The position numbers and the translations under genes are program-made. A stretch of 32,607 nucleotides of DNA from Candidatus Krumholzibacteriia bacterium (GTDB lineage: Bacteria; Krumholzibacteriota; Krumholzibacteriia; JAJRXK01), in assembly GCA_035268685.1 (NCBI GenBank), contig DATFKK010000035.1, positions 1 through 32,607 on the forward strand. Reading direction: 5' to 3'. The notes under the pieces were generated by a model. It was given only the letters and a program-made list of their open reading frames with translations. It did no database searches and was not told the DNA's origin. This document shows positions 689 through 24,209 of this stretch, piece by piece. How positions within the stretch are numbered: position 1 is the stretch's first letter; each line of letters begins with the position of its first letter.

Positions 689-806
689 CAGCGGTTTCCG
701 CCCCCCAACGCGTGGTTTCGGGGAGGCCCGGAATTCTGCGCGCAGCCCGGCGTTCACGATTTCACACCATGGCCGAGCGATCCGGGCTGGCGGGAACCGG
801 GGGGCA

Positions 807-823
807 GTGGACATCCTGTCCAC
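807..823. promoter_or_regulatory. GACA-N3-TGTC operator, upstream copy (response-regulator promoter)
   Basis: GTGGACA-TCC-TGTCCAC is a perfect 7-bp inverted repeat with a 3-bp centre at 815. It is the first of a pair: the second is centred 42 bp further on. The same arrangement recurs upstream of the ferredoxin oxidoreductase operon (3583-3638). The bound protein is unknown; the adjacent NtrC-type regulator is the obvious candidate. Confidence 0.55.
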
Positions 824-851
824 CGGACCCGGGCCGACCGCACCCTCCCCT

Positions 852-862
852 GACAAACTGTC
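852..862. promoter_or_regulatory. GACA-N3-TGTC operator, downstream copy (response-regulator promoter)
   Basis: GACA-AAC-TGTC is centred on 857, 42 bp from the centre of the 807-823 site, about four helical turns, so both would lie on the same DNA face. Symmetry does not extend beyond the 11-bp core. It ends 47 bp before the response-regulator ATG. Confidence 0.5.
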
Positions 863-909
863 GAGCGGATGCGAACGTCCGGGCCCGTCCTTCATCGCGT
901 GGTGGAAGT

Positions 910-2301
<1,392 letters not shown>

Positions 2302-2338: not shown

Positions 2339-2755
2339 TCACCTCGGACCGTCCTTCAGCCGGCCTCTGAGCACGACCCGGACGTCGTCGACGTCGAGGC
2401 CCTCGAGCTCGTGGATGCCCGAGACGCGCAACCGGTCGATGGGGATGTCGACGATCCGCCCCGTCTCCTCGTCGATGAAGTGATGATGGGGCTCGGTGTT
2501 GGCGTCGAACACCCCGGCGCCGTCGTCGAAGCTGTGCGACTGCAGCAAGCCCTTCTCGGCGAACAGGTTGAGCGTGTTGTACACGGTCGCCCGCGAGATC
2601 ACCGGGAAGTCCCGCCGGACCTCCGACCAGACCTGGTCGGCGGTCGGGTGGTCGTCGGTGAAGAGGACGTATCGCGCCACCGCCACCCGCTGGGCGGAGG
2701 GCTGGATCCCCTCGGCGCGCAGGAGCTCGGTGATGTGGAGGGCATCATGGGCCAT
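2339..2755 (-). CDS. Fur-family regulator, PerR-like, without cysteines
   Basis: A 138-residue Fur-superfamily repressor. The N-terminal winged helix includes the recognition helix SRATVYNTLN at about 54-63. The C-terminal half has the family His cluster PHHHF. Residues H36, D84, H90, H92 and D103 match, with a shift of one, the five ligands of the Bacillus PerR regulatory metal site (H37, D85, H91, H93, D104). Asp rather than Glu at the last position is the PerR-type choice. There is no cysteine at all, so the usual CxxC structural zinc site is absent. The HHH motif also recalls Irr. Peroxide or iron sensing is therefore likely, with PerR-like preferred. The gene is divergent from bfd/bfr and convergent with the response regulator. 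Its start has no clear ribosome-binding site, and a promoter (2762-2790) predicts a leaderless transcript. Confidence 0.88.
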   Translation of the reverse strand: MAHDALHITELLRAEGIQPSAQRVAVARYVLFTDDHPTADQVWSEVRRDFPVISRATVYNTLNLFAEKGLLQSHSFDDGAGVFDANTEPHHHFIDEETGRIVDIPIDRLRVSGIHELEGLDVDDVRVVLRGRLKDGPR

Positions 2756-2761
2756 GAGATT

Positions 2762-2790
2762 GGAATATGTCCAAAGGAGGACCCTGTCAA
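2762..2790 (-). promoter_or_regulatory. predicted promoter of the PerR-like gene, with inverted repeat
   Basis: On the minus strand a perfect -35 TTGACA (2790-2785) is followed after 17 bp by TATTCC (2767-2762). Transcription would start at about 2755, the A of the ATG, giving a leaderless mRNA. The inverted repeat TTGGA-N5-TCCAA (2760-2774) covers the -10 and start region and could be an autoregulatory operator. The -10 is weak (3 of 6). Confidence 0.45.
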
Positions 2791-2836
2791 CGGACGTGGG
2801 TCACATCACCGGACTGGCGCGTCAGGAGGATGAAAG

Positions 2837-2851
2837 AGATATTCAGTATCA
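2837..2851. promoter_or_regulatory. Fur-type 7-1-7 box overlapping a -10 element
   Basis: AGATATT-C-AGTATCA matches 11 of the 14 specified positions of the Fur 7-1-7 consensus TGATAAT-N-ATTATCA. It overlaps TATCAT (2847-2852), a good -10 for the bfd/bfr operon, so a bound Fur-family protein would block initiation there. It also lies upstream of the divergent PerR-like gene. No clear -35 is visible for bfd. Confidence 0.5.
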
Positions 2852-2902
2852 TCGAATCGAGGCCGAAGACCCGGGAACCGGTCCCCGACGGAGGAATTCC
2901 CC

Positions 2903-3097
2903 ATGATCATCTGCCATTGCCGCGGCATCACCGATCGTGACGTCCAGGCCGCGATCGACCGCGGCGCCAGCTCCATGCGGCAGGTCACCTGCCACGGCCC
3001 GGCGAAGGGATGCTGCGGGTCGTGCGGAACGACGATCCGCGGTATGCTGTGCGAATCCCTGCAAACCTCCGATCATCCCGGGAGCGAATCCGCATGA
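2903..3097 (+). CDS. bfd: bacterioferritin-associated ferredoxin (Bfd-like, [2Fe-2S])
   Basis: A 64-residue protein opening with the Bfd signature MIICHCRGITDRDV. C4 and C6, followed by the CCGSC cluster near residues 38-42, supply the four cysteine ligands expected for the BFD [2Fe-2S] fold. Bfd proteins dock on bacterioferritin and pass electrons to the haem to release stored iron, and here the gene lies directly before bfr. The start is well supported by GGAGG 8-9 bases upstream. Its stop overlaps the bfr start (ATGA at 3094-3097), implying translational coupling. A Fur-type box lies about 50 bp upstream, consistent with iron or peroxide control. The cytosolic iron-release role is inferred from family and neighbour. 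Confidence 0.9.
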   Translation: MIICHCRGITDRDVQAAIDRGASSMRQVTCHGPAKGCCGSCGTTIRGMLCESLQTSDHPGSESA

Positions 3098-3570
3098 AGG
3101 TCGACGCCGCCATCGTCGAAGCGCTGAACGACGTCCTCACCGCTGAACTCACCGCCATCAACCAGTACTTCATCCACCACAAGATGTGCGCGAACTGGGA
3201 GTACCAGCGCCTGGCCAAGCTCTTCTACGACGAGTCCATGGAAGAGATGCAGCACGCCGACAAGGTGATCGATCGCATCCTGTACCTGGACGGCGTTCCG
3301 AACATGCAGCGCTACTTCAACGTGCTGGTGGGCGAGAACGTGAAGGAGATGCACGAGGTCGACCTGAAGCTCGAGACGACGCACGTCGAGCGCCTGAACA
3401 AGGCCATCGTCCTGTGCCGCGAACACGGCGACAACGGTTCGCGTCTGATGCTCGAGGAGATCCTGGCCGACACCGAGGAGGCCGTGGACTGGAACGAGGC
3501 CCAGCTCGAGCAGATCGAGACGATGGGGATCCAGAACTACCTCTCCCAGCAGATCCGCCCCGAAGCCTGA
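3094..3570 (+). CDS. bfr: bacterioferritin, haem-binding type with altered ferroxidase site
   Basis: A 158-residue four-helix ferritin of normal bacterioferritin length, ending in the typical [10 protein letters not shown]. Haem ligand M52 ([10 protein letters not shown]) is present. Of the six E. coli ferroxidase ligands, E18, E51, H54 and E94 are kept, but positions 127 and 130 are Thr and Ala instead of Glu and His (the stretch reads DTEEAVDW). This resembles the haem-bearing, ferroxidase-deficient subunits of two-subunit bacterioferritins such as those of some pseudomonads. No second ferritin gene is in the window. ATG 3094 overlaps the bfd stop and is preceded by GGGAG. Role: iron storage, with iron release through Bfd. 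Iron oxidation may need a partner subunit encoded elsewhere. Confidence 0.93.
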
Positions 3571-4080: not shown

Positions 4081-5295
4081 ATGAGTTCGACCCGAACCGA
4101 ATCGAACGGCACGCCCGCGAAGACCGAACGCCGTGGCTTCCGGTGCAAGGACGCGCGCGAGGCGTCGACCGGCACCCTCGACACCGCCGGGCGCAAGGTC
4201 CCCTTCACACCTCCCGCCGACGCGGCGCCCGTCTTCATGAAGGGCAACGAGGCCATCGTGCACGGCGCTCTGCTCGCCGGCGCTCGCAGCTTCTTCGGCT
4301 ATCCGATCACGCCGGCGAGTGAGATCGCCCACACCGCGGCCGCTCTGTTCCCCGCCACGGGCGGGGTGTTCCTGCAGGCCGAGAGCGAAGTCGCCGCCAT
4401 CAACATGGTCTACGGCGCCGCCTCGTCCGGGGTCCGTTGCATCACGGCGAGCAGTTCGCCGGGCATGAGCCTGAAGCAGGAGGGCATCAGCTACTCCGCG
4501 GGCAGCGAGCTGCCCATGGTCATCGTCGACATCATGCGCGGCGGCCCCGGCCTGGGGAACATCGCTCCCGAGCAGGGCGACTACTTCCAGATGGTCAAGG
4601 GCGGCGGTCACGGCTGCTACAAGATGCCGGTCCTCGCGCCGAACAGCGTGCAGGAGATGTGCGACCTGACGATGACGAGCTTCGACATCGCCGATCGCTA
4701 CCGTACGCCGGTGATCGTCCTGGCCGACGGTCTCGTGGGCCAGATGAAGGAGCCCGTCTACCTGCCGAAGCCGGTCACCGACCTGCCCGACAAGACGAAC
4801 TGGAGCGTGCAGGGCACGCCCGAGACGCGACAGAACCTGGTGTGCTCGATCTACCTGAAGCCCGACGAGCTCGAGGCACACATCGAGCACCTCGAGCAGA
4901 AGGCGGCCACGATCGCCGAGCGTGAGACGCGCTGGGAAGAGTACCGCACCGACGATGCCGAGATCGTCCTCGTGGGCTACGGCATCGTGAGCCGCATCCT
5001 CAAGGGCGTGGTCGACGCCGGCCGCGAGCAGGGCATCAAGCTCGGTCTGGTGCGCCCGATCACGCTGTGGCCCTTCCCGGTCGACGCGCTGCGCGCGGCC
5101 GTCGAGGGCAGTGATGCCTGCATGGTCGTCGAGATGAGCACCGGCCAGATGGTCGAGGACGTCCGCCTCTCGGTCGGCGACCTCGCTCCGGTGTGGTTCT
5201 ACGGACGCGCGGGCGGCAACGTGCCGGCCGAGGAAGACATCCTCGAGGAGATCGTCGTCAATCGGGCCAAGGCCACTGGGGAGGCGAAGTCATGA
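4081..5295 (+). CDS. 2-oxoacid:ferredoxin oxidoreductase alpha subunit (VOR/KGOR type)
   Basis: A 404-residue alpha subunit. It carries the substrate-binding signature GYPITPASE near residues 77-85, the stretch [19 protein letters not shown], and KGGGHGCYK, all hallmarks of VorB/KorA proteins. The enzyme oxidatively decarboxylates a 2-oxoacid with CoA to an acyl-CoA and reduces ferredoxin, and can run in reverse in reductive metabolism. The substrate (branched-chain 2-oxoacid or 2-oxoglutarate) cannot be decided from sequence alone. The first ~50 residues are polar and not part of the conserved fold. ATG 4081 follows GAGGAGG, and the stop overlaps the next start (ATGA at 5292-5295). Cytosolic. 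Confidence 0.92.
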
Positions 5296-6743
5296 AGACC
5301 ATGCACAAGCCCGAGAGCTTCTACGGGAACTTCGAACGCAAGGGCGGCGCCGAACCGGCGGCCACGCACTACTGCCCCGGCTGCGGGCATGGCGTGATCC
5401 ACAAGCTCATGGCCGAGGTGATCGACGAGCTGGGCATCCGTGATCGCGTGGTCCTGATCAGCCCCGTCGGCTGCTCGGTCTTCGCCTACTACTACTTCGA
5501 CACCGGCAACGTGCAGGTGGCGCACGGTCGCGCACCGGCGGTGGCGACGGGCATCAAGCGCTCGCGCCCCGACAGCATCGTGATCAGTTACCAGGGCGAC
5601 GGAGACCTCGCGGCCATCGGCGGGAACAACATCCTGCAGGCCGCCAACCGCGGCGAGAACATCAGCGTGATCTTCGTGAACAACGCGATCTACGGCATGA
5701 CCGGCGGTCAGCTGGCGCCCACGTCGCTGCTGGGCATGAAGACCACGACCACGCCGGAGGGCCGCGCCTTCGCCGACTACGGCGCACCGATGAAGGTCGC
5801 CGAGTTGATGAGCGGTCTCGATGGTGTGAGCCTGGCCGCGCGCCACAGCTTGACCACGGCCGGCAACATCACCAAGACGAGGAAGGCCATCAAGAAGGCC
5901 CTGAAGTACCAGATGGAGGGCAAGGGGTTCTCGTTGGTCGAGATCCTGAGCCAGTGCCCGACCGGTTGGAAGATGGACCCCGTCGACTCGCTCGACTGGA
6001 TCGAGGAGAACATGGTCCCGATCTTCCCGCCGCAGACCTACAAGGACGAGCCCCACGAGCGGCCGACGCCGCCGGACCCGGGTGTCTACGACCCAAAGCT
6101 CGTCGACGAGGTCGTCCGGGGGGGCGGACGTGGTGACGAAGTGATGCGGACGCACGAGGGAGTGCCCTGGGCCGCCGCCTTCGAGAAGGGCGAGCAGGTC
6201 GAATCCTTGAAGATCAAGGCGGCCGGTTTCGGTGGCCAGGGCATCCTCATGCTCGGTGAGCTGGTGGCCAAGGGGAGCACCCGCGAGGGCATGCAGTCGA
6301 CCTGGTTGCCCAGCTACGGGCCCGAGATGCGCGGAGGGACCGCGAACTGCTCGGTGGTCGTCAGCCGCAACGAGATCGGCAACCCCACGGTGGTCGAGTC
6401 GAACGTGCTGATCGCCATGAATCGCCCGTCGCTCGAGAAGTTCGAGGCCGAGCTCGAACCGGGCAGCGTGTTGATCTACGACAACAGCCTGATCGACGTC
6501 GAGCCCACACGCGACGACCTGCGGGTCTTCGCCATTCCGGCGACCAGGATCGCCGACGGGCTCGGCAGCGGGAAGGTCGCGAACGTGGTCATGGTCGGAG
6601 CCCTGATGAAGGTGCTGGGCTTCCCGGGCCAGGACGCGCTCGAGAACATCGTCGGACAGCTCGGCCGCACCGAGCAGATCCGCGCGGCGAATCTCGAGGC
6701 GCTGAAGGGTGGAGCCGACGCCGTCGAGTTGGCGACCACCTGA
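5292..6743 (+). CDS. 2-oxoacid:ferredoxin oxidoreductase, fused beta and gamma subunits
   Basis: A 483-residue protein joining two subunits that are often separate. Residues 1 to about 275 are the TPP-binding beta subunit, with CPGCGHG (C28, C31), the TPP/Mg motif GDGD at 102-105 with N130/N131, and [10 protein letters not shown] after it. A charged linker follows. From about 305 the gamma subunit begins with [11 protein letters not shown] and contains the typical [13 protein letters not shown] stretch. No stop or frameshift separates the parts. The start overlaps the alpha subunit stop, so the subunits are made in stoichiometry. The beta part transfers electrons to the ferredoxin subunit encoded at 3825. 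The histidine kinase gene faces it 51 bp away. Confidence 0.92.
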
Positions 6744-6790
6744 TCACGCTGGGGAGTGGTCTTCGGTTCGGGCAAAGGTCTGATGCCCGT

Positions 6791-6817
6791 CGGCTCACGA
6801 AGGCGAGACGTGAGCCG
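6791..6817. terminator. hairpin between convergent oxidoreductase and kinase genes
   Basis: CGGCTCACG and CGTGAGCCG form a perfect 9-bp stem with a 9-nt loop. The kinase stop codon (6797-6795) lies inside it. It sits 48 bp past the oxidoreductase stop. There is no T-run on either side, so termination is plausible but not shown. Confidence 0.4.
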
Positions 6818-8219
6818 GCAGCCAGACGAGGAAGGCCGCTCCCCCCGTTTCCGCTCGTCCGGCCGTGAGGTGGCCCCGGTGATCCTCCACGATGCGCTTG
6901 CAGACGGCGAGCCCGAGCCCCGTTCCGTTGGGCTTGGTGGTGTAGAAGGGGTGGAAGATGCGTTCCAACCCCTCGGGCGGGATTCCGGGCCCGTCGTCGA
7001 GGACCCGCAACAGGACACCATCTTCGTGCGGACCGAGCTGCAGCTCGACGCGACCACCCTCTTTGAGCGCCTGAAGAGCATTCATCGTGAGATTCAGGAC
7101 GACCTGCTCGAGCTGGTTCGCGTCGCCGTGGACCGTCGGCAGGTCCTCCGCCACCGTGAACGCGAGCTCGGTCTTCTGCTTGCGGGCAGTGTGGCGGACG
7201 AGGCGTTCGATCCGCTCGAGCACGTGCTCGAAGCGGAGTTCCTCCATCTCCGGCTTCTCCGGGCGCGCGAACTCGAGCAGGTCGCGCACCAGGCCGCCGA
7301 TGCGTTCGGCCTCGTGAAGCATGACCTCGAGGTCCTCACGGCGCGGATCGTCGTGGTCGAGATCGAGCAGCAGGAACTCGGCGCTGTTGCTGATCACGCC
7401 GAGCGGCGTGCCGATCTCGTGGGCCAGCGCAGCGGCCATGTTGCCGACGGCGCTCATGCGCTCGGTGAAGGCCATCTTCTCGGCCGCGCGTCGGCGTTCG
7501 GTGACGTCGCGCAGCACGAAGCTGAAACCGTTCGGCCGGCCGCTGCCGTCCAGGAGCGGAGTGCGGCTCAGTTCCACCCACACCGCGGCGCCGGTTCGGG
7601 CGACCAACTCGATCTCGCGTTTGGCGATCGTCGCGTGCGGATCGCTGGGCGTGAAGACCTGCAGCGTGTCGTCGTCGACCTCGTCGAAGAGTTGATGAAT
7701 GGAACGTCCGACGGCCTCCTCGATCGACCAGCCGAAGATCGACTCTGCGCCCCGGTTCCAGAAGCGGACGGTGTTCTGTCGATCGACGGCGAACACGGCG
7801 TCGTTGCCGTTGCGGATCGCGCTCACCAGGAAACGTTCGCGCCAGGCGTGCCCACCTGTCCGGCTCGGGTCGGGAAGCGGAATCAGGATCGCCGCGACGC
7901 TTCCGCTGCCGTCACGAATGGGCGTGAGGACGACACGGAACGAATGGATACGACCGGACTCGTCCCGAATGGTGCGCACGGTCTCGATCGTGCGGCCCGT
8001 GCGTTGGACCTGCGGGGGAATGCAGTCCTCGCACCGTGTGTCGCCCGGGTTGAGGCCGGTGAAGCAGTGCTTCTCACACACCTCGAGACGCGAAGCCATC
8101 GATTCGCGGTAGGCGCGATTGGTCCAGACGGGGCGCAGATCCCCGTCGAGCACGATCACGCCGGTGTCGAGCGCGTCGAAGAGCGAGCGTGCGGAATCGA
8201 GAGCCGTGAGGTCGATCAT
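6795..8219 (-). CDS. PAS-PAS sensor histidine kinase with a four-cysteine PAS domain
   Basis: A 474-residue soluble kinase with no membrane segments. The first PAS domain (about 8-125) contains C48, C52, C63 and C66 in a CX3C...CX2C arrangement that could hold zinc or an Fe-S cluster, or act as a thiol switch. A second PAS domain (about 130-250) follows. The dimerisation helix has H267 in ALAHEIGTPLG, and the ATPase domain has N-box, DDGPGIP and GTGLGLAVCK motifs. There is no receiver domain, so it needs a separate partner; the NtrC-type regulator at 910-2301 fits this kinase class. ATG 8219 was chosen because the PAS domain begins just after it. An upstream in-frame TTG at 8291 would overlap the divergent gene more deeply. 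The ribosome-binding site is weak. Confidence 0.88.
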   Translation of the reverse strand: MIDLTALDSARSLFDALDTGVIVLDGDLRPVWTNRAYRESMASRLEVCEKHCFTGLNPGDTRCEDCIPPQVQRTGRTIETVRTIRDESGRIHSFRVVLTPIRDGSGSVAAILIPLPDPSRTGGHAWRERFLVSAIRNGNDAVFAVDRQNTVRFWNRGAESIFGWSIEEAVGRSIHQLFDEVDDDTLQVFTPSDPHATIAKREIELVARTGAAVWVELSRTPLLDGSGRPNGFSFVLRDVTERRRAAEKMAFTERMSAVGNMAAALAHEIGTPLGVISNSAEFLLLDLDHDDPRREDLEVMLHEAERIGGLVRDLLEFARPEKPEMEELRFEHVLERIERLVRHTARKQKTELAFTVAEDLPTVHGDANQLEQVVLNLTMNALQALKEGGRVELQLGPHEDGVLLRVLDDGPGIPPEGLERIFHPFYTTKPNGTGLGLAVCKRIVEDHRGHLTAGRAETGGAAFLVWLPAHVSPS

Positions 8220-10236
8220 GGATGACAGGGTCGCCTCGACGGTCGCGGCCGTCAACTCGGCGCAGGCGCCCTGGGCGGGCTCGGCGCGCAACGGCGTGTG
8301 CCCGGCGTGCCGCGCCGAGATGGGCGATCCTCGGTCGCGCCGTTATCGCTACGCGTTCATCGCGTGTCCGGAGTGCGGGCCGGGCTACACGGTCACCCAT
8401 CGCCTGCCCTTCGCCCGGGTGAACACCACCTTCGCACCCTTCGAACCCTGCGAGGACTGCTGGGAGGAATTCGAGGATCCCGGCAGCCGCCACTTCGGCT
8501 CGACCACCATCTGCTGCCCGGACTGCGGTCCGAGCTATTGGATCGAGCCCGCGCCTCCGATCGACGACGCGATCGACGAGATCGACAGTGCCGTCCGTGC
8601 GCTACGGTCGGGAGCGATCCTGGGCCTGAAGGACACCTGCTGCTTCCGCTTCGTCGCCCGGGCGCGCGACGTGCAGGCGGTCGAGCGTCTGCGGAGACGC
8701 ATGGAGGAACCCGACACGACCTTCGGGCTGATGGTCGCCGACGTTGCCGCGGCCCGGGAGATCGCCGACGTCAGCGAGTCCGCGGTCACACTCCTGGAGG
8801 ATCCGTCGGCGCCCCTGGTCCTGCTGCCTCGGCGGGAGTTCGGCGGCTGGCTCGACGCCGCGACCGCCCGCGGCGGCGAGGTGGCCGTCATGCTGCCGCG
8901 GGCCGCTGTCCACTTCCTGCTGATGGATTCCCTGGGCGAACCCCTGGTCGTGGCCCGGGCGGCGCGTCGCGACGACGTGGCGGTCCTGGAGAACGACGAC
9001 GCGCGCGAAGACCTCATGGACGTCGCCGACGCGCTCGTGCTGCACGATCTCGACCTGCACGCCGGCTGCGAGGACTCCGTGCTCCGCGTCGAGGACGACC
9101 GGCCGGTGGTCCTGCGCCGTGCGAGCGGCCTGGCGCCGCGTCCGCTGCTGCTGCCGTGGGAGGTTCCTCCCATGCTCGCGATCGGCGGGACGCACGAGGT
9201 CGCGATCGGCGTTGCCGAGGGGAACACACTGCGGTTGAGCCAGCCCGTCGGCGACCTCGGCACTTCGCGGGCTGCGGCCGCCTTCCGGCGCACCGTCGAC
9301 CGGATGCTCGCCCTCTGGGGGTGCGAGCCCAGGTGCGTGGTGGCGGACCCGATCCGGGAGCAGCCGGCGCGGGCCCTGGCCGCCGAGCTGGGAGCCCGGA
9401 CCGTGCTGGTCGATCATCACCACGCCCACGTGGGGTCGATCCTGGCCGAGCACTGCATCGAGTCTCCGGTCCTCGGGGTGTCGCTCGACTCCTCCGGCCA
9501 ACTGGTCGATCCGGAGCTCGGTGCCGGCCGCATCCTCCGGATCGAGGCCGGCCATGGTGATCTCCTGGAGACGATCCCCGGCTTCCGGGTGCCCGGCGCC
9601 GACGCAGCGCCGCGCGATCCGTGGCGGGTGGCGGTCGGCCTGATCCACGATGCCTGTGGTCCGGCACTCGCCGAGTTGTGGGCGCACCGGTTGGCCACCG
9701 ATGCCCAGACCGCGGACAGTGCGCTGTCCATGCTCACCCATGACGTCGGCTGCGTGACCGTCCACAGCTTCGGGAAACTCTACGACGCGGCTGCCGCCGT
9801 GCTGGGCGTGGCGCGCCGCACGTCGTCGGCCGGTGTCGCGGCCCGGCGCCTCGAACTGGTGGCCGGCGTTGCCGACGCCGAGTCGACCGACGTCGAGACC
9901 GCCCGTCTGGAGCCGGCCAGTTTCCTCGCCGCCTGGATCGAACGCCTCCTCGCCCGGGCCGAGGACGACGGCGATCTCGTGGAGGACGCGCGCTGGGTGC
10001 AGCGTTCCCTGTCGGCCTGGGTGGCCCGGCGCGCCTTCGACATGGCCGAGTGCCAGGGTCTCGACGTGGTCGCCGCCGGCGGTGGCTGCTTCTCGAACCC
10101 CTGGCTGCGCCGGGGATTCCACGTGCGCGCCCGGGAGACGGGCCGGCGTCTGGCCCTGAACGAGAGCATCCCGGCCGGGGATTCCGGACTCGCCGTGGGC
10201 CAGCTCTGGATCGCCGCGCGCCGGGCTGCGTGCTGA
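8218..10236 (+). CDS. HypF-like carbamoyltransferase homologue, without acylphosphatase domain, probably altered function
   Basis: A 672-residue protein with HypF domain order but no N-terminal acylphosphatase domain. Two intact HypF-type zinc fingers come first (CX2C-X18-CX2C twice, starting C28). A YrdC-like domain follows, and then a Kae1-like domain with the HHHAH metal motif and the C-terminal DSGLAVGQ. Several signatures are altered. The YrdC stretch KGxGGFHL reads KDTCCFRF, the following KPF motif is lost, and the Kae1-like DGTGYG reads DSSGQL. Normal HypF makes the CN ligands of NiFe hydrogenase; no hyp or hydrogenase gene is nearby. The role is unknown. ATG 8218 follows GTGAGG and overlaps the divergent kinase start. 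A starting point further in is possible. Confidence 0.75.
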   Translation: MDDRVASTVAAVNSAQAPWAGSARNGVCPACRAEMGDPRSRRYRYAFIACPECGPGYTVTHRLPFARVNTTFAPFEPCEDCWEEFEDPGSRHFGSTTICCPDCGPSYWIEPAPPIDDAIDEIDSAVRALRSGAILGLKDTCCFRFVARARDVQAVERLRRRMEEPDTTFGLMVADVAAAREIADVSESAVTLLEDPSAPLVLLPRREFGGWLDAATARGGEVAVMLPRAAVHFLLMDSLGEPLVVARAARRDDVAVLENDDAREDLMDVADALVLHDLDLHAGCEDSVLRVEDDRPVVLRRASGLAPRPLLLPWEVPPMLAIGGTHEVAIGVAEGNTLRLSQPVGDLGTSRAAAAFRRTVDRMLALWGCEPRCVVADPIREQPARALAAELGARTVLVDHHHAHVGSILAEHCIESPVLGVSLDSSGQLVDPELGAGRILRIEAGHGDLLETIPGFRVPGADAAPRDPWRVAVGLIHDACGPALAELWAHRLATDAQTADSALSMLTHDVGCVTVHSFGKLYDAAAAVLGVARRTSSAGVAARRLELVAGVADAESTDVETARLEPASFLAAWIERLLARAEDDGDLVEDARWVQRSLSAWVARRAFDMAECQGLDVVAAGGGCFSNPWLRRGFHVRARETGRRLALNESIPAGDSGLAVGQLWIAARRAAC

Positions 10237-10341: not shown

Positions 10342-11628
10342 ATGGATCAGACGAAGAGCCAGTCCCTGCTCGAACGCGCGCGCAAGGTCATCCCCGGTGG
10401 TGTGAACTCGCCGGTCCGTGCCTTCGGCGGCGCGCACGTGGTGTCCCCGTTCATCGTCCGCGGTGAAGGGGCCTGGTTCGAGGACGAGGACGGGAACCGC
10501 TACGTGGACTACATCGGGAGCTGGGGTCCCCTGGTCCTGGGTCATGCCCATCCGGCCGTGGTCGACGCGGTGAAGGCCGCCGCCGAGCGCGGCACCAGCT
10601 TCGGCACCCCGACCGCGTCGGAGATCGAACTCGCCGAGCTGCTGTGCGAACGCGTGCCGAGTCTCGACATGGTCCGCCTGGTGAGCAGCGGAACCGAGGC
10701 CACGATGAGCGCGGTCCGCGTGGCCCGCGGCGCCACCGGGCGCGACAAGTTCGTCAAGTTCGTCGGCTGTTATCACGGCCACGGCGACGCCTTCCTCATC
10801 GAGGCCGGCAGCGGCCTGGCGACCCATGGCACGCCCAGCAGTCCGGGCGTCCCCGCGGCCACGGCGCAGGACACGTTGACCGTTCCGTACAACGACCTCG
10901 AGGGCGTGACGAAGCTCTTCGAGCAGAACCGCGACCAGGTCGCCGCCGTGATCGTCGAGCCGGTGGCGGGGAACATGGGCCTGGTGAAGCCGAAGGAAGG
11001 ATTCCTCGAGGGTCTGCGGAGTCTGTGCGACGAGCACGGTGCGGTACTGATCTTCGACGAGGTCATGACCGGCTTCCGGGTCGGGCCCCAGGGGGCGCAG
11101 GGGCGCTACGGGGTGACACCCGACATGACCACGCTGGGCAAGGTGATCGGGGGCGGTCTGCCCGTGGGTGCCTACGGGGGCCGCCGCGAACTCATGGAGC
11201 AGGTCAGTCCTGCCGGTCCGATCTATCAGGCCGGGACCCTGAGCGGCAATCCGCTCGCCGTGGCCGGCGGTCTCGCCGCGCTCACCGAGCTCTTCCGCGA
11301 TCCGTCGATCTTCGACCGGGTCGAGGAGACCACGAAGATGCTCGGCGAGGGACTCGAGAGTGCCGCGTCGGACGCAGGCATCCCGCTCCGGGTGCAGAGC
11401 GCGGGAAGCATGGGGTGTGCGTACTTCACCGACCGTCCGGTCGAGGACTTCGCCGGCGCCGCGGCGTGCGATGCCGAGCGCTTCTATCGTTTCCATGCGG
11501 CCATGCTGGAGCGGGGCGTCTACCTCGCACCGTCTCCCTTCGAGGCCTTCTTCGTGGGAGCGGCCCACGGTCCCGACGAAGTGGCCCACACGCTGAACGC
11601 CGCGGCCGAGAGTTTCGCCCTGCTGTAG
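10342..11628 (+). CDS. hemL: glutamate-1-semialdehyde 2,1-aminomutase
   Basis: A 428-residue PLP enzyme that converts glutamate-1-semialdehyde to 5-aminolevulinate in the C5 tetrapyrrole pathway, in the cytosol. Family marks include the N-terminal VIPGGVNSPVRAF, SSGTEATMSA, GCYHGH, IFDEVMTGFRV and the PLP lysine K267 in TTLGKVIGGGLP. Length is normal and no key residue is missing. ATG 10342 is preceded by GGAG with a C-rich spacer, a pattern shared by several genes here. ubiX starts 18 bp downstream, so the two are probably co-transcribed. Haem supply fits the cytochrome and bacterioferritin genes nearby. Confidence 0.97.
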   Translation: MDQTKSQSLLERARKVIPGGVNSPVRAFGGAHVVSPFIVRGEGAWFEDEDGNRYVDYIGSWGPLVLGHAHPAVVDAVKAAAERGTSFGTPTASEIELAELLCERVPSLDMVRLVSSGTEATMSAVRVARGATGRDKFVKFVGCYHGHGDAFLIEAGSGLATHGTPSSPGVPAATAQDTLTVPYNDLEGVTKLFEQNRDQVAAVIVEPVAGNMGLVKPKEGFLEGLRSLCDEHGAVLIFDEVMTGFRVGPQGAQGRYGVTPDMTTLGKVIGGGLPVGAYGGRRELMEQVSPAGPIYQAGTLSGNPLAVAGGLAALTELFRDPSIFDRVEETTKMLGEGLESAASDAGIPLRVQSAGSMGCAYFTDRPVEDFAGAAACDAERFYRFHAAMLERGVYLAPSPFEAFFVGAAHGPDEVAHTLNAAAESFALL

Positions 11629-11646
11629 CCCCCTCGACGGAGCCCC

Positions 11647-12273
11647 ATGGCCCCGAACGCAGAAGATCGTCGCCCGCTGGCACTGGGAATCACCGGCGCC
11701 AGCGGCGCACCCTACTGGGTGCGCTTCGTCGAGGTCGCCGTCCGCGCGGGCGTGGAGCTGCACGTGGCGGCCAGCGGCAACGTCGACACCGTCTGTCGCG
11801 CCGAGCTCGGGGACGACTTCGAGACCTGTCTGGAGCGGGCGATCGAGCGCTCCGGCGTGGGAGACGATGGCGCGAAGCGCGTCCGGGTCTTCGACAAGCG
11901 CGACTACCACAGTCCCATGGCCAGCGGCAGCGCCCGCTACGCCGGCATGGTGATCCTGCCCTGCAGCATGGGGACCATGGCCCGCATCGCCCACGGGACC
12001 AGCGACGACCTGATCAGCCGTGCGGCCGACGTCGCCCTGAAGGAGCGTCGGAAGCTCGTGCTGGTGCCCCGCGAGACCCCGCTCAGCCTGGTCCACCTCG
12101 AGACCATGTCGAAGGTCACCCGCGCCGGTGCCGTGGTGCTTCCCGCCATGCCCGGCTTCTACCACCGGCCGGAATCGATCGACGACCTGGTCGACTTCGT
12201 CGTCCAGCGGATCGCCGACCAGCTCGATCTGGACGTCGAGCTCACGCGACGTTGGGGCCAGCGGGGCCGCTGA
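11647..12273 (+). CDS. ubiX: flavin prenyltransferase, UbiX family
   Basis: A 208-residue flavoprotein-fold enzyme. It has the FMN-binding start LGITGASGAPYWVRF and the typical central VILPCSMGTMARIAHG. The C-terminal half contains LVLVPRETPLSLVHLE and AVVLPAMPGFYH. UbiX attaches a dimethylallyl group to FMN to make the prenyl-FMN cofactor of UbiD-type decarboxylases. In organisms with the futalosine route, UbiX/UbiD-like enzymes serve menaquinone synthesis; a UbiA-like prenyltransferase and mqnA lie about 9 kb downstream, which favours that role. No ubiD homologue is in the window. ATG 11647 follows GGAG. Confidence 0.95.
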   Translation: MAPNAEDRRPLALGITGASGAPYWVRFVEVAVRAGVELHVAASGNVDTVCRAELGDDFETCLERAIERSGVGDDGAKRVRVFDKRDYHSPMASGSARYAGMVILPCSMGTMARIAHGTSDDLISRAADVALKERRKLVLVPRETPLSLVHLETMSKVTRAGAVVLPAMPGFYHRPESIDDLVDFVVQRIADQLDLDVELTRRWGQRGR

Positions 12274-12427: not shown

Positions 12428-15400
12428 GTGATACGCATGGGCGGATCCCCTCGGCCCGAACGTGAAGCGGAATCGCCGTCCGGCGCTCCCGCGCATCCGG
12501 CCGGCGACACGGTGCCCGAAAGCGACTCCCCCCCGAGGACACGGTCCCGGGTCTCCCTGCCGGTCGTGGGGATCGGCGCGTCCGCGGGTGGGCTGCAAGC
12601 GCTCGAGCAGTTGTTCACGAATCTGCCCGCCGACACCGGCGGGGCCTTCGTGGTCGTCCAGCACCTGTCGCCGGATTTCAAGAGCCTCATGGACGAGCTG
12701 CTCGCCAAGCACACGAGCATGCGGATCAAGGTCGTGCACGAGGACCAGCGCCTCGAAGCCGATCACATCTACCTGATCCCACCCCGCTGCGATCTGAAGC
12801 TCGACGGCGATCACGTCCGGGTCACCCGTCAGGACCGCGAAGCCGTGCCGGCGGCTCCGATCGACGTGTTCCTGAGCTCCCTGGCCGAGGACCGCGGCAA
12901 CGAGGCGGTGGCGGTGATCCTGTCCGGCACGGGCAGTGACGGCAGCCGGGGCGCCGCCCAGGTCAAGGAGAGCGGGGGCGTGGTGCTCGTCCAGGAGCCC
13001 TCCACCGCTGCGTTCAACGGCATGCCGCACAGCGCCATCGACGCCACCGAGGTCGACGCGGTGCTCGAACCCGGCGAACTGGCCGTCCGGCTGGCGCGCT
13101 ATCTCCACGAGCCCGAGCGGCGGCTCCTGCGTGGGGAGAAGCAACCGATCGGCGAGGACATGGCGCCTCTCGACGCGATCCTCGACGTGCTGCGGGCGAG
13201 TTACGGGATCGATTTCCATCTCTACAAGCCGAACACGTTGCTGCGACGCATCGAGCGACGCATGTCGATGCATGCCTGCGGCACTCTCGCCGAGTACTCG
13301 AAGAAGCTGCTGGAGTCGGAGCAGGAGCAGAAGATGCTCTACGGAGACCTGTTGATCCGGGTCACCGAGTTCTTCCGCGATCCCGAGAGTTACCAGGCGC
13401 TGCTCACCGAAGCACTGCCCGACCTGGTGGCCGAGAAGCAGCGGCAGGACGAGGAGCTCCGGATCTGGGTCGCGGGGTGCGCGTCGGGCGAGGAACCGAT
13501 CTCGCTGGCGATCCTGCTCGACGAGTACCGACGCACGCTCGACCAGCCCTTCGAGTACCGCATCTTCGCCACCGACATCGATCCCGAAACGGTGAGCCAG
13601 GCGGGTCTCGGTCACTTCCCCGCCGAGATCGCGGCGTCGATGGGCGAGGAGAGGCTCGACGCCTACTTCGAAGCGACCGATCACGGTTATCAGCTGGTGC
13701 CGGCCATGCGCGACCGGATCGTGTTCGCCCAGCACGACCTGGTCCGCGATCCTCCCTTCACGCGCATGGACCTGATCAGCTGTCGCAACGTGCTGATCTA
13801 CTTCCGGGCCGATCTGCAGAACCGGGTGCTGGGTCTGCTGGACTTCGCGCTGAATCCCAACGGTGTGCTCTTCCTGGGTCCGAGCGAGACCATCGGTGAG
13901 TTGAGCACCCACTTCGGGGCGCTGAGCTCGCGTTGGAAGATCTTCCGCAAGAGCGCCCAGGCGGGGCGGAAGATCACGTCGGAGGTGCTGCGGCGGGGCA
14001 TGTCGGCCTCGTCTTCGAGCACGGCGGGCATGGGATCACGGCGCGCCGCGGTCGTCCCGCCGGCCGAGCGTGTGGACTATTCGGCCGTCGCCACTGCCAT
14101 CGCCAACGAGTACCTGCTCGTCTGCCTGGTACTCGACGGCAACTTCCACGTGCGCTACGTACTGGGCGATCCGGCCGGCCTGCTGCGCATCCCACTGGGA
14201 ATGACCACCTACGACGTCTTCCGCATGCTCGACGGTGACCTGCGTCTGGCCGTCGGCACCGCCCTCCATCGGACGGAGAAGACGGGCGAGGACAGTGTCT
14301 GCCGACGCGTCCAGGTGACGGGGCTCGACGAGTTGGTCGACGTCAAGGTGAAGGCGCTCGACACCCGATCGAACGGCTCGGGCGCCTACGCCCTCATGGT
14401 GCAGCGGTCGAGGCTGCCCGAAAAGGTCGTGCCCGAGGACGAGGTGACCTTCGAGGTCGACGAGCGGGCTCGGGAGCGGATCGACCAGCTCGAGCACGAG
14501 CTGTCCTCGACGAAGGAACACCTGCAGGCCACCGTCGAGGAGCTCGAGACGGCGAACGAGGAGCTGCAGGCGGCCAACGAGGAACTGCTGGCCAGCAACG
14601 AGGAGCTGCAGAGCACCAACGAAGAGCTGCACTCGGTGAACGAGGAGCTCTACACGGTGAACGCCGAGCACCAGAGCAAGATCCGCGAACTCACGGTGCT
14701 CAACGCGGACATCGAGAACCTCTTCCAGAACCTCGACATCGGAATCGTCTTCCTCGATCCGGAGCTTCGGGTGCGCAAGTACACGCAGCGTGCCACCGAG
14801 ATCATCAAGTTGATCCCGCAGGACGTGGGGCGGCCGCTCGAGCATCTGAACCAGAACGTGCTCGACGTGGATCTCGTGGACACGACGCGCGCGGTGCTGA
14901 CGCGTGGAGAGATCCGGGAGCAACGCGTGCAGACCGCGAACGGTTCCTGGCTGTTCGTGCGAGTGCTGCCCTACCGGGACGGGTACGGCGAGACCCGCGG
15001 CGCGCTACTGACCCTCGTCGACATCACCGACGTCATCGAGGGCGAACGGACGCGGAACCGACTCGAAGAAGAGTTCCGGCAGTTCGCCGAGCACATCACC
15101 GACGTCTTCTGGCTCACCGACGCCACCGGCGAGCACGTCCTGTACGTGAACCCGAACTACGAGCTGTACTGGGGCAAGGCACCCGACCACGAACTCGGCC
15201 GCGACATACTCTTCGACGGTCTCCACCCCGAGGACCAGTCGAAGGTGCGCGCAGTCCTGGAATCGCCACAGTGGGCCGCTTTCGACCTCGAGTACCGCGT
15301 GCAGCTCGACGACGGGAGCGAGCGCTGGCTGCACAACCGCGCCTTCCCGGTGACCGATCGTCAGGGCGATGTTGCGCGTGTCGCCGGCGTCATCAGCGAC

Positions 15401-17068
15401 ATCACCCAGCGCAAGCAGGACGAGATCTCACTGCGACGGCTCGCCTCGATCGTCGAGTCGTCGAAGGACGGCCTGTTCAACCTGGACTCGCAGGGTGTGA
15501 TCCGCACCTGGAACCCGGGTGCCCAGGATGTCTTCGGGGTGGAAGCCGAACAGGTCGTCGGTCAGCCACTCACCTCCCTGTACCCGGACGAGTCCGAGTC
15601 CGAGTTCGAGGCGCTGTTCGAGCGGCTCCGTCAGGGCGAGTCCGTCGTCGACTACCAGTCGGCGCGCCACACTCCGGGCAAGGATCTCCGACACGTGGAG
15701 CTGACGGTGTCGGTGATCCGTGGCAACGGAGCGGGAGGCGGCGGTTTCGCCGTGGTCGCCCGCGACGTCACCGAGCGTCTCGCCCGGGAGACCGAGTTGC
15801 ACAAGCTCACGCAGAGCCTCGAGCGACAGGCGAACCACGATCCGCTGACGGGACTGCTCAACCGCCGCGGCCTCGAGAAGTTCCTGTTCGTCGAACTCGA
15901 GCGGACGCGGCGCGAGGGCCAGCGCGTGGGCGCGGTCCTCATCGACTGCGACAACTTCAAGCGGATCAACGACCAACTCGGCCACTCGGTCGGCGACGTC
16001 GTCCTGCAGAGCATCGCCAAGCGATTGCGCGCGGCCTTGCGTCCCTCCGACTTCCTGGGACGCATCGGTGGGGACGAGTTCATGGTGCTGTTGCCGAACA
16101 CGCGCCTGGCCGAGGCCCTGCAACTGGCCGAGCGCCTGCGCCTGGTGGTGGCGGAATCGCCTCTGCAACTGCAGGAGCAGATGATCGGGATCACGGCCAG
16201 CCTGGGCGTGACACTGGTACCGGAGAACGTCATCTCGATCGAGGAGATCGTGAGCCACTCCCAGCACGCGCTGTCGCAGAGCAAGAGCGCGGGAAAGAAT
16301 CGAGTGTCTCTACGCGAGGGGGACGACGATGCCCAACGCGAGGAGATCAGCGACGCCACCCGCGACGTGGGCGACCTCGTCCAGGCGCTCACCTCGGAGT
16401 CGGCCTTCCGGACCGTGGTCCAGCCGATCTTCGATCTGGTCAGCGAGCGTGCGGTGGCGTACGAGTTGTTGTCCCGGGGGCCGGAAGGAGCCTTCGAGAG
16501 CCCCGACGACTTCTTCCGGATCAGCGCCGAGAACAACATCCTCACCACGGTCGACCTGCTGTGCGCCAAGCGAGCCATGGACTGGGTGTCGAAGCACGCC
16601 AACGGAGTGCGCTACCACGTGAACCTCTTCCCGTCGACGCTCCTGGAGACCCCGGCCGAACGTCTGGAGCAGATGTTCGAGGTGCTGGGCGATCCGTCGC
16701 GCTTCTGCGTGGAGATCAGCGAGCAGCAGTTCGTGGGCGACGCGCACTACCTGCTCGAGAAGGTACGCCGGCTCCGCGAGTTCGGCGTGAGCGTGGCGCT
16801 CGACGACGTGGGATTCGGACGCAGCTCGCTCGAGTCGCTGATCCTGCTCGAGCCCGACATCATCAAGATCGACCAGTCCTTCGTCCGTGGTGCCCACGCC
16901 GACCCGGGGCAACAGCGGTCGCTGCAGCGGCTGGTCATGCTGAGCAAGAACCTCGATACCACCCTGGTGGCCGAGGGGATCGAGGAACACCGGGACATCG
17001 ACGTCCTGGTGGACATGGGCGTGCGCATGGGACAGGGCTTCCTGTGGGGCGAGCCGAGAGCCAACTGA
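12428..17068 (+). CDS. CheB-CheR-PAS-GGDEF-EAL hybrid signalling protein
   Basis: A 1546-residue soluble multidomain protein without membrane segments. Order: CheB methylesterase (about 45-225; S in GASAGG, H in VQHL, D in GTGSDG). CheR methyltransferase (about 245-520; [28 protein letters not shown]). A heptad-repeat coiled coil (about 680-760). Three PAS-like segments (about 760-1120). GGDEF (motif 1214-1218, with inhibitory-site RxxD five residues before). EAL (YELLSR at about 1345, then N, E, DD, K, E, Q all present). It could therefore both make and break c-di-GMP and act on methylated receptors. No chemoreceptor gene is nearby. GTG 12428 follows GGAGAGG; ATG 12437 is an alternative. A paralogue follows 25 bp downstream. 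Confidence 0.92.
14555..14665 (+). repeat. 21-bp coding repeat for an NEEL heptad coiled coil
   Basis: An Asn codon AAC recurs every 21 bp at 14555, 14576, 14597, 14618, 14639 and 14660, mostly followed by codons for Glu-Glu-Leu. The repeats encode a regular parallel coiled coil linking the CheR part to the PAS part. The paralogue at 17094 has the same array at 19119-19226. Confidence 0.8.
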
Positions 17069-17093
17069 TCGCCGTGTGCGCCGAGGTGGAGAG

Positions 17094-20000
17094 GTGACGA
17101 AGCCGAACGAGCACGATGCAGGCGCCGATCCGGCCCCGAGCAAGGGCGTGCGGCGCGACGAATTCCACGTCGTCGGGATCGGTGCGTCCGCCGGCGGCAA
17201 CGACGCTCTCTGTGCCCTGCTCGCCGGGCTCCCGCCGGACAGCGGGGCGGCCTACGTCGTGGCGCAGCACCTCGCGCCGGAAGCGCGCAGTCACCTGGCC
17301 GAACGCCTGGCCCGCCACACGTCCATGCCCGTGGACTGGCTCGACGAGCCGCGATTGCTCGAACCCGATCGCGTCTACCTGGCTCCGGCGCGCAGTCGGG
17401 TCCTCTTCGTCGACGGTCGGGTCGAGGCCCGGGTCGACGACGAGCGGGCGACGAACACCCATTCCGTCGACGTCCTCTTCGGCCGTCTGGCGCGCAGCTA
17501 CGCCGAACGAACCGTGGCCGTGGTCCTCTCGGGGGCCGGCTCCGACGGCAGCGCCGGCGTGCGGGCGGTGAAGAGCGCCGGTGGGACGGTCGTCGTCCAG
17601 GATCCCGATGAAGCTGCGTTCGACGGCATGCCGCGCAGTGCGATCTCCACCGGCGTCGTCGACGCGGTCCTGAGTCCTGCGGAGATTGCCGACCGACTCA
17701 GCACCTACCTCGGCCGGTTGGGGGCGGTTCTCCAACCGTGGTCCGAAGACGGCGACGAGCACGCCGTCGATCCCCTCGAGACCCTGATCGAGGTGCTGAG
17801 GCGCAAGAGCGGCTTCGACTTCCGACTCTACAAGGAAGGAACCATCCGGCGGCGTCTGGAGCGCCGGATGGCCCTGACCCAGGTCGGACGCTGGCAGGAC
17901 TACCACGAGCGGCTGATGGAATCGGCGGCCGAGCGCGACGCCCTGTGCCGCGACCTCTTGATCAACGTCACTTCGTTCTTCCGCGATCGCGATGCCTTCG
18001 CGGCGCTCGAGGAGCGCGCACTGCGCGACATCGTGGAGCAGGCCGACGAAGGTGGAGAGATCCGGGTCTGGGTGCCCGCCTGCTCCACCGGTGAGGAAGC
18101 CTTCTCGATCGCGATTCTCCTGCAGAAGGTGGTCGACGAGTCGCAGCGCGACCTGCGCTTCCGGATCTTCGCCACCGATCTCGACACCCGGGCGATCGAG
18201 ATGGCGTCTTCCGGACTCTTCGACGCCTCCATCGAGCAGCGCATGCGGCCCGAGGTGCTCCGTCGGTGCTTCGACGATCGCGGTGGCGGCTACGAAATCA
18301 AACGGCCGCTGCGCGAGAAGGTCGTGTTCGCCGCCCACGACGTCGCCCAGGACCCACCGTTCACGCGCATGGACCTGGTCAGCTGCCGCAACCTCCTGAT
18401 CTACCTGCGCCCGGAGCTCCAGGCGCACGTGCTGTCGTTGCTGTACTTCGCGCTCAGGCAGAAGGGTTATCTGTTCCTCGGGAGCAGTGAGACCCCGGTG
18501 TCGATCGACGAACACCTCGAAGTGGTGGACACCGAGATGCGTCTGTACCGCCGGATCGGCCCCGACGGAAGGCCGCCCCGGCTGCGTTCGCTCGACCGGA
18601 TCCTCGACCACGACGACCGTCACCCACCACCTGCCCGCCGGATCTCGGCCAAGGCCGTCGCGCAACACGCGGCGATCGCCCAGTCGCTCGTGGAACGCGA
18701 TTCCCTGTTCGCTCTCGTGGTCGACGGCCGACTGCATCTACAGCACGTCTACGGCGACCCGGGTCAGGCCCTGCGCGTTCCGAGCGGCACGGTGACCAAC
18801 GAGATCTCGGCTCTGACGCGCGGGGACTTCCGGTCGGCGGTCCTGGCCTCGGTGCCGCGAGCCCAGCGCACCGCGCGGGAGGTCGTCAGCCGCTCGGTGG
18901 CGCTCGATCACGGCGGTGCGGTGGAGCACGTGGACGTGCGCGTGGTGCCGGTGATCGAAGGGGAAGAGACGATCGATTCCTTCATCGTCCTCGTGAGCCG
19001 GATCGACCTCGGTGCAGTCGGTGACCGCGAGCTCCAGCACCGGGTCCACGACCTGGAGGTCGAACTCCACGGGGCGCGCGACGACCTGCGGCACACGGTG
19101 CAGGACCTGGAGCGCTCGAACGAGACCCTGCGCTCGACCAACGAAGAACTGATGGTCACCAACGAGGAGCTGCAGAGCGCGAACGAGGAGCTGCACTCGA
19201 CCAATGATCAGCTCTTCCGCACCAACCTCGACCACGAGGGGCGCATCTCGGAGCTGAGCGAGGTCACGCGAGACCTGGAGAACCTGTTCGTGGGTTCGGA
19301 GGTCGGAATCGTCTTCCTCGACGAGCACCTCTGCGTGCGCAAGTTCACGCCCGTGGCGGCCGCGGTGATCCACCTGCTCGACCAGGACGTCGGACGTCCG
19401 CTGCACCACCTGGCCCACGGGCTCCGTGACGTCAGGTTGGAGAAGGTGGCGGAGACGGCCCTGCACAGTGGACAGGATTCGTCGCAACGCGTGTGCACCG
19501 AGCAGGGGGAATGGTACCTGTTGCGCGCGCTTCCCTACCGCATCGAGGACGGATCGACGGCCGGAGTGCTGCTCACGTTGACCGACGTCACCGAGCTCCA
19601 GCGCGTGACCGATGCCATGCGCGCCTCGGTCGACCGTTTCCACGGATTCCTCGATGCCCTGCCCGACCGATTCCTGTGGCTGAACCCCGACGGGACCTGG
19701 CTGCGTCTGCGTGACGTCGCTTCTTGGCGCGACGAACCGCCGCGCGTGCTCGGGCACGACGAGCTGGCCGCCTTCCTGTCGGGTCCGGCCCGTAGCGCGG
19801 TCGAGGAGGCCGCGCGGCGCTCGGTCGAGAGCCAGGAACTGCAGACGGTGAGTTTCGACCAGTACCGCGGCGACACGCTCCAGTCCTACGAGGCCCGTCT
19901 GCTCGCGGTGGGCGATCAGGGTACGCTGTGCGTCCTGCGCGACGTCTCGGAGCTGCGCCGCAGCGAGCGCGAACTCGTCCACCTGACCCGCCACCTCGAA

Positions 20001-21239: not shown

Positions 21240-21336
21240 CGCGGCCGGGCTGGGCGATCTTGGCCGACGGGATTATCTGTTCTGCTCGACCGCGGTGTCG
21301 TGCGCGGCGGTCGGCCGCCACCCCGCCGGGAGTCCC

Positions 21337-22188
21337 ATGCGTCCGCTGCTGCTGATCCTTCGTATGATCAAGTGGGAGCACACCATCTTCGCGCTCCCCT
21401 TCGCCCTGGTGTCGCTGCTGGTGGCCAGCGACGGCGTGCCGGCCTGGAGCACGCTGGGCTGGATCCTCGTGGCGATGATCGGCGCCCGCTCGACGGCCAT
21501 GGCCTTCAACCGGCTCGTCGACGCGCGGATCGACGCCGCGAACCCGCGAACGGCCACCCGCGAGATCCCGAGCGGTGCGCTGAGTCGCACCGCGGTGCTC
21601 GTGTTCACCCTGGCCACGGCGGGGCTGTTCGTGTTCGCCGCCTTCATGCTCAATCCGCTGTGCTTCGCGCTGTCGCCGGTGGCCCTGCTGATCGTGTGGT
21701 TCTACTCGCTGACCAAGCGCTTCACGGCGCTCAGCCACCTGTTCCTGGGTCTGGCGCTGGGCGTGGCGCCGATCGGGGCGTGGCTGGCCGTGCAGGGCGA
21801 GTTCGCGGCCTTCCCTCTGATCCTGGCCTTCGCGGTGCTGTGCTGGGTCGCTGGTTTCGACGTTCTGTACGCCTGTCAGGACGTCGATTTCGACCGGAAG
21901 GCCGGACTGCGTTCGATTCCCGCCGCGATCGGGCAACGGGCCGCCCGTTGGGCCGCACGCGGATTGCACGTGCTGGCGGTGGGGGCGTGGGCGTGGGCCT
22001 TCCTGTCGGTCGGCCTGGGGGCGGTGGCCCTCGCCGGCGTCGTGGTGACCGCGGTGTTGCTCGGCTACGAGCACTGGCTGGTCCGCGGCGACGATCTGAG
22101 CCGGATCGACCGGGCCTTCTTCGAGGTCAACAGCTGGATCGGGATGGTCCTGCTCGGGTCGACCCTGCTGGAGCTCTACCTGGTCTGA
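21337..22188 (+). CDS. mqnP: UbiA-family polyprenyltransferase, MqnP-like
   Basis: A 283-residue integral membrane protein with about eight hydrophobic segments. It carries both UbiA Asp motifs: NRLVDARIDAANPRT early, and QDVDFDRKAGLRSIP near residue 190. These bind Mg-diphosphate and transfer a polyprenyl chain to an aromatic acid. The neighbours (an MqnE/C-like gene and mqnA) favour the futalosine-route prenyltransferase MqnP over ubiquinone UbiA. ATG 21337 follows GGGAG; it is preferred over an upstream start at 21295, where the extra 14 residues look non-native. The gene is separated by 97 bp from the signalling genes and by about 75-90 bp from the next gene in the same direction. Confidence 0.9.
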   Translation: MRPLLLILRMIKWEHTIFALPFALVSLLVASDGVPAWSTLGWILVAMIGARSTAMAFNRLVDARIDAANPRTATREIPSGALSRTAVLVFTLATAGLFVFAAFMLNPLCFALSPVALLIVWFYSLTKRFTALSHLFLGLALGVAPIGAWLAVQGEFAAFPLILAFAVLCWVAGFDVLYACQDVDFDRKAGLRSIPAAIGQRAARWAARGLHVLAVGAWAWAFLSVGLGAVALAGVVVTAVLLGYEHWLVRGDDLSRIDRAFFEVNSWIGMVLLGSTLLELYLV

Positions 22189-24158: not shown

Positions 24159-24207
24159 GATCTTGACATCAAGATCATGACACCTTAGTGTCTCGATCGA
24201 GGTGTCA
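24159..24207 (+). promoter_or_regulatory. promoter and palindromic operators of the MerR gene
   Basis: GATCTTGA-CA-TCAAGATC (24159-24176) has perfect 8-bp arms and contains a consensus -35 TTGACA (24163-24168). A weak -10 (TAGTGT, 24186-24191) lies 17 bp on. A second inverted repeat, TGACACC (24178-24184) and GGTGTCA (24201-24207), encloses the -10, with GACAC-N4-GTGTC nested in it. The start GTG follows two bases later. Autoregulation by the MerR protein is likely. Confidence 0.6.
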
Positions 24208-24209
24208 AC

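Follow-up and report, generated by a model that had tools for sequence, protein, structure and literature searches.

The 32,607-nucleotide stretch analyzed here (the window; contig DATFKK010000035.1 of a Candidatus Krumholzibacteriia bacterium, C35 in a 4.59-Mb assembly of 202 contigs) carries a gene, at 8218..10236, for a protein resembling HypF. HypF starts cyanide synthesis for nickel-iron (NiFe) hydrogenases, and the presence of its gene is commonly taken to indicate NiFe-hydrogenase maturation. The question raised by this locus is whether such a reading holds for a homologue that has lost a whole domain together with many conserved residues. We give an even chance to the proposal that a HypF scaffold was turned here into a non-cyanide protein, i.e., a metal/nucleotide-binding switch or a new acyl/carbamoyl transferase, serving a redox kinase/2-oxoacid:ferredoxin oxidoreductase module in Krumholzibacteriota.

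Architecture of the HypF-like protein and the second HypF of the genome

The frame is intact over 672 codons, with a coding-type bias of GC (guanine plus cytosine) content by codon position (0.74/0.54/0.89), and its product matches the Pfam models zf-HYPF (twice), Sua5_yciO_yrdC, HypF_C, and HypF_C_2, which gives the domain order fingers-YrdC-Kae1:

8218..10236, + strand: HypF-like paralogue without acylphosphatase domain, 672 aa (open reading frame, Pfam, TIGR00143, conservation columns, and AlphaFold2 (AF2))
8296..8526, + strand: two HypF-type zinc fingers, residues 27-103, 8/8 cysteines kept (Pfam and motif)
8599..9123, + strand: YrdC-like domain, residues 128-302, KxR...SxN lost: K162M, R164E, T246A, S247R, N249A (Pfam and alignment)
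9166..10206, + strand: Kae1-like domain, residues 317-663; H400, H404, D424, and D655 kept; G425S, E438R, R520K (Pfam and alignment)

The two CX2C-X18-CX2C zinc fingers required of HypF are present (C28xxC31-x18-C50xxC53 and C78xxC81-x18-C100xxC103), and the HHHAH motif corresponds to H400HHAH404. An earlier interpretation of the window, made from its letters and translations (the sequence-only reading), had described both elements as intact and the acylphosphatase domain as absent, and both statements were borne out: a Pfam search for the latter domain (PF00708) gave no match in the window protein or in its ortholog L005 (see below), and the TIGR00143 model covers the window protein from model positions 99-740 only. 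Judged by domain order and fold, the protein is a HypF homologue, yet it scores 396.9 bits, below the TIGR00143 cut-off of 466.1. It was not filed as HypF because four tested HypF features fail, namely the TIGR00143 cut-off, the acylphosphatase domain, the adenylation signature, and the operon context. The structure predicted by AF2 from a 47-row alignment recovered the HypF fold with a mean predicted local distance difference test (pLDDT) value of 89.6 and a predicted template modelling (pTM) score of 0.90, and the closest solved structures were the HypFs 3VTH, 3VTI, 3TSP, and 4G9I (TMq 0.82-0.88).

A second, full-length HypF (674 bits, acylphosphatase domain present) is encoded on contig C172, where it adjoins HypA, HypE, HypD, HypC, a maturation protease, and a NiFe hydrogenase; the window gene therefore comes in addition to a regular HypF. 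Contigs C104 and C167 contain two more loci for a NiFe large subunit (three in the genome), so that hypCDE and the hydrogenase genes are all present on other contigs. One HypE, the protein that HypF carbamoylates at its C-terminal Cys, scored above its cut-off in the genome, and a stand-alone acylphosphatase gene was found on contig C34.

Residue losses shared with a single ortholog

Amongst 80 genomes of the phylum (61 with some match), the sole standout relative was L005, 39% identical and encoded on contig C53 of genome G002, which belongs to the same family as the window genome (kinship table) and to another genus, and which also possesses a complete HypF (L046). With a profile built from the pair, the two proteins scored 1304-1342 bits, and they form a clade with support of 100/99, whose position among the HypFs is weakly supported (79/83); their tree branches are long (1.65 for the window protein and 0.88 for L005). 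The pair profile revealed no further member in the phylum of the Eisenbacteria genome (0/47, best 499 bits), and none in the phyla of the Acidobacteria genome (0/396, best 523 bits) and the Gemmatimonadales genome (0/395, best 535 bits), where at most three candidates per genome were scored and a weak second copy could escape. The best candidates from outside the phylum (L139-L144) have starts resembling those of acylphosphatase-bearing HypFs, and TSGN is present in them; the motifs of L145-L150 were read within the enlarged alignment (described below) only. A wider scan of contigs for members relied on two peptide patterns and is hence not exhaustive, while a tblastn search of plasmids returned, among the best 15 of 133 matches, ordinary-looking HypFs of about 32-34% identity. 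Among the matches listed in the literature on HypF homologs and paralogs, titles and abstract beginnings hold no description of such a protein.

For the analysis of conservation, 68 unique sequences, none shorter than 560 aa, were aligned, the double-finger pattern with a spacer of 22-30 residues being required, and a column was regarded as conserved when it was at least 90% conserved in the 66 other HypFs (110 such columns). The window protein retains 70 of these, the ortholog 89, and the genome's own canonical HypF 105, against a median of 108 for all rows. The altered YrdC and Kae1 signatures noticed in the sequence-only reading are thus confirmed, and the departure is far from chance. The picture was unchanged after enlarging the alignment by 29 rows (52 loci considered, 50 with matches and 2 without, duplicates removed), in which the window protein retains 64 of 99 conserved columns (median 97). 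Short frames L020 and L030 begin at contig ends and hence are no proof of domain loss. By region, the window protein keeps 23/26 conserved columns in the fingers, 20/40 in the YrdC-like domain, and 27/44 in the Kae1-like domain, the finger columns being preferentially retained (23/26 vs 47/84 elsewhere, Fisher p = 0.0023).

The KxR...SxN signature is reported to be the catalytic motif of YrdC domains, including those of HypF and TobZ (PMC9654439). Its residues occur in 61/66 (K162) and 66/66 (R164, S247, and N249) canonical rows, and the 95 canonical rows agree; the window protein has M, E, R, and A at these positions (0/4 kept) and the ortholog has M, R, A, and K (1/4 kept). T246, which by reading of the TS-N motif aligns with the threonine binding the beta-phosphate of adenosine diphosphate in E. 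coli HypF (PMC10321239), is A in the window protein and T in the ortholog.

In the Kae1-like domain, metal ligands were assigned by homology to GdmN, where the iron site consists of two His and two Asp and the oxyanion hole of backbone amides after the first Asp (PMC9633730). G425, which adjoins the metal ligand D424 and by the same homology would occupy the oxyanion position, is S in both members, and R520 is K in the window protein and V in the ortholog; both residues are kept in canonical rows (95/95 and 94/95, respectively). The window protein also carries W435G and G429L. Columns changed in both members include K162, S247, N249, D285, R303, G425, R520, and H595, and at nine columns the replacement is identical (H94G, K162M, L274V, D285E, G425S, F522Y, F594V, H595Q, and L620A). 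R164, T246, K167, and E438 were lost in the window protein only, the ortholog retaining all four along with KGTGGFH, KPM, and NDGG. Retained in both are the eight zinc cysteines, H400, H404, D424, D655, G622, G623, and N627. The ortholog would be named HypF by TIGR00143 because its score of 535.3 bits exceeds the cut-off, despite the loss of three of the four signature residues.

The loss of 40 of 110 conserved positions on a branch as long as 1.65 changes per site could also mean that the window copy is a HypF duplicate on its way to a pseudogene. We regard this as very improbable, because the losses are shared, the synteny is conserved, and the frame is intact on a long branch: neutral evolution should have left about 34 nonsense changes on that branch and none is present, the finger columns are preferentially kept, and the same residues were lost in a relative of another genus. 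The sequence-only reading had named frameshifts in relatives as a sign of decay, and no frameshift was seen in the window copy or in the ortholog. Simple decay was rejected on these grounds.

The conserved gene block and the proposed function of the paralogue

The two loci hold one block, composed of a sigma-54 regulator, the alpha and beta-gamma subunits of an oxidoreductase, a divergent PAS kinase, and the HypF-like gene. Its other components in the window are as follows:

712..2301, + strand: sigma-54 response regulator, AtoC/NtrC type, 64% identical in the ortholog cluster
4081..5295, + strand: 2-oxoacid:ferredoxin oxidoreductase alpha subunit, VorB type, 69% identical in the ortholog cluster
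5292..6743, + strand: 2-oxoacid:ferredoxin oxidoreductase, fused beta-gamma subunit, 67.5% identical in the ortholog cluster
6798..8219, - strand: divergent PAS sensor histidine kinase, 53% identical in the ortholog cluster

At E <= 1e-60, the PAS kinase was detected in 2 of 78 genomes, which are exactly the two with a HypF-like gene. The start codons of the kinase and HypF-like genes overlap (CATG, 8217-8220), and at the ortholog locus (L044 10180-10207) they lie 26 bases apart; therefore, at least one promoter must be placed inside the other gene. Within its first PAS region, the kinase has C52, C63, and C66 (HCFTG...RCEDC.PP) in common with its counterpart at the ortholog locus, and these cysteines may form an iron-sulfur or thiol redox sensor. 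No hyp or hydrogenase genes were found beside the ortholog or among the window frames scanned (the frame 24167-26962 lay outside the scan), in line with the sequence-only reading, which had also pointed to a redox-type kinase and hemL as neighbours; the kinase is conserved at the ortholog locus and hemL is adjacent here only.

The reading that we tentatively prefer, at somewhat below even odds, is that of a neofunctionalised HypF paralogue acting as a putative metal/nucleotide-binding accessory of this kinase/oxidoreductase module. The acylphosphatase domain and key YrdC adenylation residues would have been lost in the common ancestor of both members, and the paralogue would no longer supply cyanide synthesis with carbamoyl-adenylate made from carbamoyl phosphate, a task left to the canonical HypF on the other contig. 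No carbamoyl-adenylate formation is expected because the KxR...SxN catalytic motif is lost. Retained are the fingers, the general fold, the metal ligands of the Kae1-like domain, and the nucleotide-loop glycines, and the protein would serve as a non-catalytic or barely catalytic accessory of the Cys-containing PAS kinase, the sigma-54 regulator, and the 2-oxoacid:ferredoxin oxidoreductase. Adenosine triphosphate, adenosine monophosphate, or an acyl-adenylate could be bound in the Kae1-like cleft, and the bound state passed to the kinase or a partner protein.

The sequence-only reading had proposed a repurposed carbamoyl- or adenylate-transfer protein. Repurposing is supported by the ortholog, in which the missing domain, the altered near-invariant catalytic residues, and a neighbourhood without hyp genes recur, and by the canonical HypFs elsewhere in both genomes; the adenylate-transfer role is unsupported, the KxR...SxN motif being the most evidently destroyed element. 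Carbamoyl transfer would be possible through the Kae1-like domain alone, and this leads to the main rival of the accessory reading, i.e., an active Kae1-type carbamoyl- or acyltransferase, in which the YrdC-like domain would be scaffold only, the adenylate would be made elsewhere (e.g., by the canonical HypF), and a new acceptor would be tied to the oxidoreductase module. A precedent is the Kae1-only HypF1 of Cupriavidus necator, thought to need carbamoyl-adenylate from outside (PMC9100943), and neither member has lost any of the four metal-ligand positions, G622-G623, or N627. However, normal HypF transfer is made less likely in both members by G425S, which lies in the oxyanion loop, and by R520K/V, HypF1 keeping both residues as the canonical rows do; the window protein has in addition E438R, W435G, and G429L, and no acceptor candidate was identified. 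The changes in the Kae1-like domain exceed the effect of domain truncation alone in HypF1, the control, where 40 of the 44 conserved columns of this domain are intact (35 in the ortholog and 27 in the window protein). We consider this transferase rather unlikely.

Less probable still is a second, specialised HypF isozyme maturing one of the three NiFe hydrogenases via HypE. The three large-subunit loci and the single HypE above cut-off would accommodate it, truncated HypFs can function in C. necator (PMC9100943), and the ortholog passes the HypF cut-off, but the adenylation signature is lost in both members, neither copy has hyp or hydrogenase genes beside it, and each of the two genomes encodes a complete HypF as well.

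Several points weigh against the accessory reading. The ortholog, which keeps R164, T246, E438, and the motifs named above and passes the curated cut-off, could be an active HypF variant, and the retained metal ligands and nucleotide-loop glycines fit catalysis as well as binding. The alignment used by AF2 consists mostly of HypFs, which favours the HypF fold, and the model thus indicates compatibility with that fold and not independent support for it. Only two members are known, both from metagenome-assembled genomes (MAGs) or draft assemblies, and "conserved" stands for one comparison. Finally, any physical contact with the kinase is hypothetical, and the divergent arrangement may mean only shared regulation.

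If a HypF copy with a destroyed adenylation site and other neighbours is indeed conserved, some annotated HypFs would not be cyanide-synthesis enzymes (the ortholog passes the curated cut-off), and such a copy would provide a natural test of which parts of HypF, e.g., its fingers or the metal site of the Kae1-like domain, have a role separable from carbamoyl-adenylate synthesis.

Related proteins and other genes of the window

Canonical HypFs (TIGR00143; 3TSP, 3VTH, 4G9I), the carbamoyltransferases of NiFe-hydrogenase maturation, share with the window protein the order zinc fingers-YrdC-Kae1-like, the predicted fold, the zinc cysteines and the metal ligands, at mostly about 25-33% identity; the window protein differs in the missing acylphosphatase domain, the lost KxR...SxN, G425S, R520K, its location outside a hyp operon, and its sub-threshold score. 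C. necator HypF1 (394 aa) needs neither acylphosphatase nor YrdC activity to function (PMC9100943) and has the same metal ligands, but it is encoded within a hyp operon, whereas the window protein retains the finger and YrdC fold. In the case of the class III carbamoyltransferases TobZ and GdmN, a YrdC and a Kae1-like domain are likewise combined without acylphosphatase, and the iron site of GdmN has two His and two Asp (PMC9633730); they differ in the opposite order (Kae1, then YrdC; PMC9654439), the lack of zinc fingers, and the conserved KxR...SxN.

One of the 29 added rows, the HypF-like protein L117 of a Lentisphaeria MAG, is itself degenerate, with 58 of 99 conserved columns, i.e., fewer than the window protein. 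Its zinc cysteines are kept and SxN is lost, as in the window protein, but it has a weak acylphosphatase remnant and has lost the Kae1 His ligands. It looks independent of the pair because it carries none of the pair-specific replacements at the positions compared. Two independent degenerate HypFs with kept fingers hint that the scaffold is reusable, and "post-HypF" proteins of this kind may have had more than one origin. The gene of L117 (7677-9983, +) begins 2 bases after hydF (6433-7674, +; TIGR03918, 530.9 bits), and its product is possibly a partner of FeFe-hydrogenase maturation.

Downstream of the HypF-like gene, the two loci differ: hemL and ubiX follow in the window, and a frame judged by eye as CxxCH cytochrome-like follows at the ortholog locus, for which reason hemL was rejected as a functional partner. 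An antiphage role was also rejected, there being no PADLOC match. The tetrapyrrole/quinone-type genes of the window, which encode HemL, a UbiX-type flavin prenyltransferase, and a UbiA-type prenyltransferase (10342-12273 and 21295-22188, +), had no counterparts seen next to the ortholog. A divergent pair encoding a Fur/PerR-family regulator and a bacterioferritin (2342-3570) separates the sigma-54 regulator gene from those of the oxidoreductase, and neither turned up in the matching part of the ortholog locus. Furthermore, two adjacent giant CheB-CheR-PAS-GGDEF-EAL fusions of 1546 and 1387 aa (12428-17068 and 17076-21239, +) were distinguished, which probably represent a tandem duplication.

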